From Candidatus Eisenbacteria bacterium (GTDB taxonomy: Bacteria; Orphanbacterota; Orphanbacteria; Orphanbacterales; Orphanbacteraceae): a stretch of DNA of 64,000 nt. How positions within the stretch are numbered: the first letter of the stretch is position 1; each line of letters begins with the position of its first letter. Under the pieces are notes generated by a model. The model was not told the origin of the DNA and did no database searches. It saw only the letters and a program-made list of their open reading frames with translations. The position numbers were made by a program, and so were the translations under genes. Location: contig JAFGGD010000016.1 of assembly GCA_016930695.1 (NCBI GenBank), forward strand, positions 1-64,000, in the 5' to 3' direction. This document shows positions 48,443-49,554 of this stretch, one piece after another.

Positions 48443-48730
48443 GGATTCCGAGAGGGATTACCCGTCCGTCCCTCTCCCCACACCGTGCCCCGGAGGGAGA
48501 GCCGGGGGTGGAAGGAAAGGCACCCTCACCCTCTCCCGCCATCCTCTCCGCTTCTTTCCCGGACGGACGGCGTGATCCTTCGAGGAGAAGGGGCGGGACG
48601 GGGGCCCCCACCTCTCGAGGTGCGTGAAAAATGGCCGCGCGAGGTCGCACCCTTGTGGGAACTCCGTGGCGATCACGAACCCACCCAGGGGGCGGCACGC
48701 CCCGGACTCCGAGAAGGATTACCCGTCCGT
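48443..48730. repeat. 27-bp direct repeat, two copies
   Basis: Copies at 48443-48469 and 48704-48730 share GGATTACCCGTCCGT and differ at two of 27 positions. The 234 bp between them holds no gene; it includes GGTGCG...CGCACC, a short inverted pair. Confidence 0.6.
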
Positions 48731-48818
48731 TCGGTTTCCACCGCCCTTGATTTTCCCTCTTTCGGTTCGGAGGAGCGGAGGGGAATTCGTCACGACGTTC
48801 GCGATTCCGCACGAAACA

Positions 48819-48998
48819 GATTCGGGGATCGAAATCGGATCCGTACATGAGGCGCGGGAGCGCGGAGCGAGACCGGTTTCGGACAAGCCCGCTCCCGGAG
48901 TCGTAGCCCGAGCTACGATGAGGAAGCGGGCGACGGAGAAACCGGATCGCAGCCCGCGATCACGCGTCGCAATAGGATCCGATTTCGATCCCCGAATC
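48819..48998. repeat. 180-bp near-perfect palindrome with 24-bp terminal inverted repeats
   Basis: The outer 24 bases (48819-48842) are the exact reverse complement of 48975-48998. Inner pairs share the same centre (about 48909): CCGGTTTC (48873-48880) with GAAACCGG (48938-48945), CCCGCT (48888-48893) with AGCGGG (48925-48930), and TCGTAGC (48901-48907) with GCTACGA (48912-48918) around a CCGA loop. The right arm ends inside the stop codon of the XRE-cupin gene. It could be a MITE-like element, a structured RNA or an unusual terminator. Confidence 0.85.
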
Positions 48999-49554
48999 AG
49001 AAGAGGGGGACGGCCGTTCCCACCCAGATCGCCTCGGCGCCGTGGCGGTTGGATGCGTAGAAATAATGCGGTTGGTCCGATTTGTAGTGGATGCTGTCCC
49101 CCGCCTTGAGGCGGTACCGCTCCTCGCCGATGACGACCTCCAGGCTCCCCTTGAGGACGGTGATCGCCTCTTCCCCCGCATGGGAGCGCGGGGTAGGCGG
49201 CTTGGCGCCCGGCTCGGCGACGAGATGATAAAAGTGGAGCATCCCGCCCGGAATGCCGTTGGAGAGGCTCTCGAGACGAACGCCGTGCTCCTCGTTGGAG
49301 AGGATCGACCGGTCCGGCTTGCAAACCCGGCAGGTTTCCTCGAGCGCGTTCTCCTCGATAAAAAAGCTGGCGGTCTTGTCGAGCGCCCGAGCGAGTTTTT
49401 CGAGGGCGCCGACGGTGGGCGAGGTCATCCCCCGCTCGATCTGCGAGGTGTGCGTCATCGAGACGCCGGAGAGAAGCTCGACTTCCTTCAGGGTCAAACC
49501 TTTTTCGAGCCGAACGGACTTGATCCTTTTTCCGAGTTCCTCTCTCGACGGCAT
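48997..49554 (-). CDS. XRE-family regulator with C-terminal cupin domain
   Basis: The 185-residue protein has an N-terminal HTH (about 6-62) with TLKEVELLSGVSMTHTSQIE and TSPTVGALEKLARAL, then a cupin domain (about 100-180) with HAGEEAITVLKGSLEVVIGE and LKAGDSIHYKSDQPHY. This architecture (PuuR-like) usually senses a small molecule in the cupin barrel and controls catabolic or osmotic genes. The His and Glu metal-type residues of the cupin are partly present. ATG 49554 is the best start; a promoter is predicted at 49712-49741. Its 3' end lies in one arm of the giant palindrome. The target is unknown. Confidence 0.88.
   Translation of the reverse strand: MPSREELGKRIKSVRLEKGLTLKEVELLSGVSMTHTSQIERGMTSPTVGALEKLARALDKTASFFIEENALEETCRVCKPDRSILSNEEHGVRLESLSNGIPGGMLHFYHLVAEPGAKPPTPRSHAGEEAITVLKGSLEVVIGEERYRLKAGDSIHYKSDQPHYFYASNRHGAEAIWVGTAVPLF

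Follow-up and report, generated by a model that had tools for sequence, protein, structure and literature searches.

The window analysed here, a stretch of 64,000 nucleotides, contains a 180-base block that folds back upon itself along its whole length and runs into the end of a gene for an XRE-cupin regulator. What is this palindrome, and does it serve the gene that it adjoins? An earlier note on the same DNA had offered a MITE, a long structured RNA or attenuator for the regulator, and a site bound by the regulator as possible answers. The features concerned are as follows.

48819–48998, + strand (the strand inferred to fold): hairpin element, recognized by arm identity, RNA fold and covariance model match
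48819–48842, + strand: left outer arm, perfect over 24 bp by arm comparison
48975–48998, + strand: right outer arm, perfect over 24 bp, which takes in two bases of the XRE stop codon
48900–48919, + strand: apical stem-loop TCGTAGC-CCGA-GCTACGA, the helix most strongly conserved within the family
48760–48797, + strand: probable remnant of a further left arm, carrying the loop-1 motif (ATTCGTCACGA) and lying 5' of the hairpin; comparable left-half duplications occur elsewhere
48997–49554, − strand: XRE-cupin regulator (185 aa); the hairpin adjoins its stop codon
46157–48265, − strand: BatA/VWA protein, the next gene; the XRE–BatA order is kept in relatives without the hairpin
48482–48734, + strand: separate dispersed repeat with 75 matches in its own genome

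The outer arms (48819–48842 and 48975–48998) are 24 nt long and 100% complementary, as the note had claimed, and the chance expectation for such arm pairs in 64 kb is ~1e-6. The long hairpin that it foresaw was also recovered: the whole 180-base block is predicted to form a single 182-nt rod with an apical stem GTAGC-CCGA-GCTAC centred at 48909.5, and the RNA minimum free energy of 48800–49020 was −131.5 kcal/mol, compared with −83.8 ± 4.4 kcal/mol for shuffled sequences (z −10.9; 0/200 shuffles). The proposal that the inner arms share one centre holds for the apical stem, but the inner part is not a single perfect palindrome; it consists of helices split by asymmetric internal loops, and these loops are conserved across copies. 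The TGA stop codon of the XRE-cupin gene (− strand) occupies 48997–48999, so that the right arm covers two of its three bases and the block does end within that codon.

The gene order XRE then BatA is kept in six relatives, in which the two genes lie ~35–150 bp apart without a hairpin between them. In the genome under study the spacer measures 731 bp and holds the hairpin, the probable left-arm remnant and the dispersed repeat. Since the hairpin is absent from the orthologous place in all six relatives, the window copy is a lineage-specific insertion between XRE and BatA and no ancestral part of the regulator. This bears directly on the suggestion that the hairpin is an attenuator of, or an operator for, the adjacent XRE-cupin regulator, which has the adjacency itself in its favour. 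The relatives maintain the gene pair without a hairpin and other copies of the element abut unrelated genes, so that neither an XRE-specific attenuator nor a binding site for the regulator is supported; dispersal already contradicts this reading, and we consider it barely credible. With regard to the rest of the spacer, ~15 of the 75 own-genome matches to the repeat at 48482–48734 span 130–250 bp at 90–98% identity; many matches lie at contig ends, and several, oriented alike, are found immediately to the left of giant hairpins. TRF found no tandem array in the window copy's own left flank.

The earlier note had advised a search for further copies, and this placed the block in a family. BLAST with the 180-base block gave ~20 partial copies in its own genome, and when the flanks of these matches were inspected nearly all proved to be complete hairpins of ~182 nt, every full copy having nearly the same length (~182 bp). 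The arms are unlike between copies and nevertheless pair with themselves within each copy, and the unpaired motifs between the helices are constant. A covariance model located ~28 loci in the genome and 32, 60 and 1 copies in three relatives from the same family; it found no copies in three other family members or in 34 genomes outside the family. When an exact core pattern was run across 84,980 species genomes, a scan from which own-genome records may be left out, the only matches came from a MAG with the label Gemmatimonadetes bacterium DeMMO4_6. In the window + orientation the 5' half of the element reads arm A, CGTNRCGAGG, arm B, GAGGCGAGAG, arm C, TTCGGACGAG, arm D; the apex follows as CCGGA-NCGTAGC-NNNN-GCTACGA-TGAGGA, and the 3' half reads D', GAAGGAGAA, C', CTCGCAGCCC, B', CCGCAGYAGG, A'. 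The internal loops are purine-rich and conserved across the family. The block is therefore one copy of a dispersed, non-coding, MITE-like family of palindromic elements. It is neither unique to its contig nor lacking in structural conservation, and an assembly artefact at a palindromic junction, which the note had entertained, finds no support in view of the many independent copies together with the pairs of empty and filled sites in relatives described below. As Rfam gave no match above gathering score, the hairpin is not a known Rfam family, and no description of it was found in the literature.

Many own-genome copies are found no more than ~650 bp from the end of a contig, or directly at it (e.g. 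L011, L018 and L013), and two are broken inside the hairpin, so that copy number and arrays are probably underestimated. One copy is nested inside the apical loop of another (L016, 1404–1644), and at another locus (L003, 1381–1736) a truncated tRNA-Pro duplicate lies at one edge of a hairpin with a complete tRNA-Pro on the other side.

Evidence that the fold itself is maintained comes from covariation. When 19 copies were aligned by sequence alone, double compensatory change was seen at 45 of 53 pairs; with 44 copies aligned to the model the figure rose to 47 of 53, and on every measure 0/500 shuffles did as well. This is covariation beyond chance, as expected of a functional structured RNA. 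It is also strand-specific. At the variable pairs of older copies, read on the window + strand, G.U outnumbers A.C by 76 to 15, G.A outnumbers C.T by 47 to 2 and GG outnumbers CC by 18 to 3; of 29 older copies, 27 fold more stably as the + strand than as its complement, with a mean gain of 12.5 kcal/mol; and the covariance model R1, which matches the window copy at 48834–48983, scored 142.5 bits on the + strand versus 40 bits on the − strand. The window + strand folds as a 182-nt rod of variable, covarying helices and conserved purine-rich internal loops. The asymmetry of the substitutions points to selection on one strand, which may act as RNA or as single-stranded DNA. Decaying young copies are also G.U-rich (12 versus 4 A.C), and mutational bias may thus contribute to the strand signal.

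The suggestion of a structured RNA is to this extent upheld, with a strand-specific conserved fold and strong covariation, but most copies have their folding strand in antisense to the gene next to them. A possible reading would be an independent small structured RNA gene that lies antisense to its neighbour's 3' end and has spread as a mobile element, and the conserved purine-rich loops, the covariation and the RNA-typical strand asymmetry would all agree with it. No sigma-70-like promoter was found in the window region in a search limited to that promoter type, however, no shared upstream promoter was noticed and Rfam offers no counterpart; we regard such a gene as improbable.

The mobility of the family is seen most clearly in the younger copies, which were separated from older ones by divergence. 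Two relatives, G003 and G006, carry a high-identity young subfamily with termini TAGCCTGGATTATGCACGCGTTTTCGTC, whose insertion duplicates a target of 4 bp that is typically YTAR and in many cases a stop codon. All four G006 insertions considered have a continuous empty orthologue in G003, in which the tetramer is present once, whereas it stands on each side of the element at the filled site. The tetramer is CTAG or TTAA in two of the four cases and changed in two; in one G006 case CTAG contains the TAG stop codon of a gene. The elements are small, non-coding and dispersed in multiple copies with terminal inverted repeats, and target duplication with empty sites was found in the young subfamily only. 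The option of a MITE is accordingly supported, and the look for target-site duplications that the note proposed gave four of four empty sites in the young subfamily. The family also includes deletion derivatives as short as 57 bp and composites of ~312 bp; the latter, exemplified by L110–L114 in G003, have taken up extra hairpins at the apex and within the right half.

A search for an autonomous partner with the termini of the young subfamily found no transposon-sized pair of termini at ≤2 mismatches in these fragmented assemblies. A resemblance between termini had suggested an IS1380-type transposase as the mobilizer, but this was rejected since such a transposase is absent from the copy-rich genomes, in which PF13701 was not found. 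Y1 genes are present in the four hairpin carriers and absent in three non-carriers, a co-occurrence that is suggestive of a RAYT/Y1 role. It is weakened because the genome's own RAYT carries a different REP and because no full hairpin flanks the Y1 genes, as the cognate REP of a REP/REPIN–RAYT system would. This single RAYT-like Y1 transposase (L167, 930–1532) lies between its own REP hairpins, GTAACCAGATACCTTTTC..GAAAAGGTATCTGGTTAC.

The older copies lie at gene ends in a single orientation. Genes around the copies were called by a crude finder based on codon usage. By these calls, a gene on the right and on the opposite strand ends with its stop codon ≤10 nt from the right edge of 15 older (diverged) copies, and 7 more have the 3' end of a tRNA (Gln, Leu or Gly) at that edge; for one copy the right-hand neighbour is SRP RNA at 7 nt and for another 5S rRNA at ~47 nt. 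Older copies thus abut gene 3' ends with the folding strand antisense to the gene concerned, on the right side in 24 cases and on the left in none (binomial p ~5e-7 for 22:0 right versus left). The neighbouring proteins, identified by inspection, include a ferredoxin, an aminoacyl-tRNA synthetase, RNase G, PdxS, sigma54-type regulators and others in addition to the XRE protein. The SRP-linked copy is not conserved, the SRP loci of relatives being without a full hairpin, and this speaks against the boundary role proposed below. Of 40 further copies, most of them from the young subfamily, 23 have a stop codon abutting on the right and 7 on the left, one of these copies on both. The sense (left-stop) copies lie in tight operons, with a median of 20 nt to the next start versus 127.5 nt for antisense copies (p=0.001), so that read-through into a close downstream gene goes with a sense folding strand.

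Our current working hypothesis, which we hold with about even confidence and which is read from sequence comparison, is that the hairpin is a MITE that has been retained as a directional 3'-boundary element. At a gene end it would be kept as the directional boundary of a transcription unit and would stop or destabilize transcripts, possibly aided by Rho or RNase III; the strand evidence would favour transcripts that enter from downstream; read-through into a close downstream gene would be tolerated only where the folding strand is sense; and the arms would stay matched through selection and, from time to time, through template switching that copies the left arm onto the right. On the + strand, a modest excess of pyrimidines marks the 25 nt to the left of older copies (0.63 versus 0.51 at young copies, p=0.001), which is compatible with, though no proof of, Rho loading on transcripts approaching from downstream. 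A U-tract (≥5 T in 8) follows in the gene sense at 1 of 28 copies and in the antisense direction at 0 of 28, and terminator prediction called none at the window hairpin; an intrinsic terminator was therefore rejected, and any termination would need a factor. The same counts bear on the more conventional reading of a terminator or 3'-end stabilizer in the neighbouring gene's own mRNA. The exact position at stop codons and after tRNA, SRP RNA and 5S rRNA genes would be in keeping with such a function, but the near absence of a U-tract in the gene sense, the poorer folding of the gene-sense strand and a folding strand antisense to the gene all fit it badly, and we consider it very unlikely.

A different question is whether any host function need be invoked. 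Orthologous tRNA genes help to separate compensatory evolution in place from copying of one arm onto the other, which few palindromic repeats allow. In the tRNA-Gln copies, five changes between G006 and G003 are double-compensated, four are G.U changes and no pair is broken; the tRNA-Leu copies have 22 pairs kept and 3 broken. The two older copies followed in place thus kept their pairing, with 31 pairs kept and 3 broken, compared with 15 kept and 18 broken at four orthologous young insertions together, where a few of the broken pairs may be alignment slips (Fisher p=6e-5). Own-genome copies at tRNA-Gln and tRNA-Leu also retain pairing, although the tRNA-Leu copies do not certainly share descent across genera. 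Several older copies bear left-side tandem duplications in which the unit comprises flank plus left half only (87 bp × 3.5 in L070; ~88–160 bp elsewhere). In the G003 array at tRNA-Leu two left arms occur in alternation, one of which serves in the hairpin; in G006 the arm of the G003 hairpin is left only as an upstream remnant, both hairpin arms carrying the other, so that the adjacent left arm was apparently the template from which the right arm was renewed. Template switching at quasipalindromes is expected to recopy arms in this manner (PMC7202029, PMC8604942). Such recopying can keep the outer arms matched without selection, but would erase asymmetric inner loops.

The strongest challenge to the boundary hypothesis is a plain palindromic MITE without host function, in which the fold is kept because transposition depends on the folded strand, quasipalindrome correction matches the arms, and the YTAR/stop-codon target plus the purging of harmful insertions yields the gene-end positions. 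The target duplication and empty sites, the decay of pairing in young copies, the deletion derivatives and the apparent recopying at tRNA-Leu are all as this would have it. A symmetric target and near-symmetric termini leave the 24:0 orientation of older copies unexplained, however, as does arm copying the persistence of the asymmetric loops, and the tRNA-Gln copies changed in place without one broken pair; we judge a purely selfish element possible but somewhat doubtful.

The palindromic MITEs ERIC/IRU, Correia/NEMIS, RUP and YPAL (PMC2229807, PMC2267715) resemble the hairpin in being 100–200 bp long, non-coding, intergenic, paired end to end and flanked by a target duplication, and an orientation-dependent effect of ERIC on adjacent transcripts, reported previously, provides a precedent (PMC2229807). 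Leaving aside sequence relation, the hairpin differs from ERIC, Correia, RUP and YPAL in that its arms diverge almost limitlessly while pairing and inner loops stay, in its fixed antisense placement at gene 3' ends, including those of rRNA, SRP and tRNA genes, and in its left-half tandem duplications. Intrinsic terminators under compensatory evolution (PMC5381666) likewise follow stop codons and keep their pairing by compensatory and G.U changes; the hairpin, unlike these, is mobile, ~182 nt long and without a U-tract, and has conserved internal loops. Integron attC sites offer a general analogy only, a folded strand with conserved unpaired bases. A tentative and rather unlikely proposition goes further: across the genome, protein, tRNA, rRNA and SRP RNA genes would have recruited as their directional 3' boundary a 182-nt fold that derives from a transposon, is strand-specific and has conserved loops. 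Its arms would be renewed by copying of upstream left half-arms onto the right arm, and it would constitute an undescribed kind of gene-end element. The undescribed structured repeat family itself, with its very strong covariation, comes from a poorly sampled bacterial family, and because close relatives hold both young mobile copies and old ones that are oriented and conserved in pairing, the transition from mobile hairpin to gene-end element is directly testable.

REP/REPIN sequences with their RAYT (Y1) transposases (PMC3733652) are also dispersed palindromes near gene ends, and Y1 genes occur in hairpin carriers; the hairpin is far longer, has a 4-bp target duplication instead, and is not the REP that flanks the genome's own RAYT. 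A REP-like palindrome of another kind is present in the window at 1448–1672, where a cluster of inverted repeats with 25-bp perfect arms is built on AATTCTGGGGACACAATACGGAATT.
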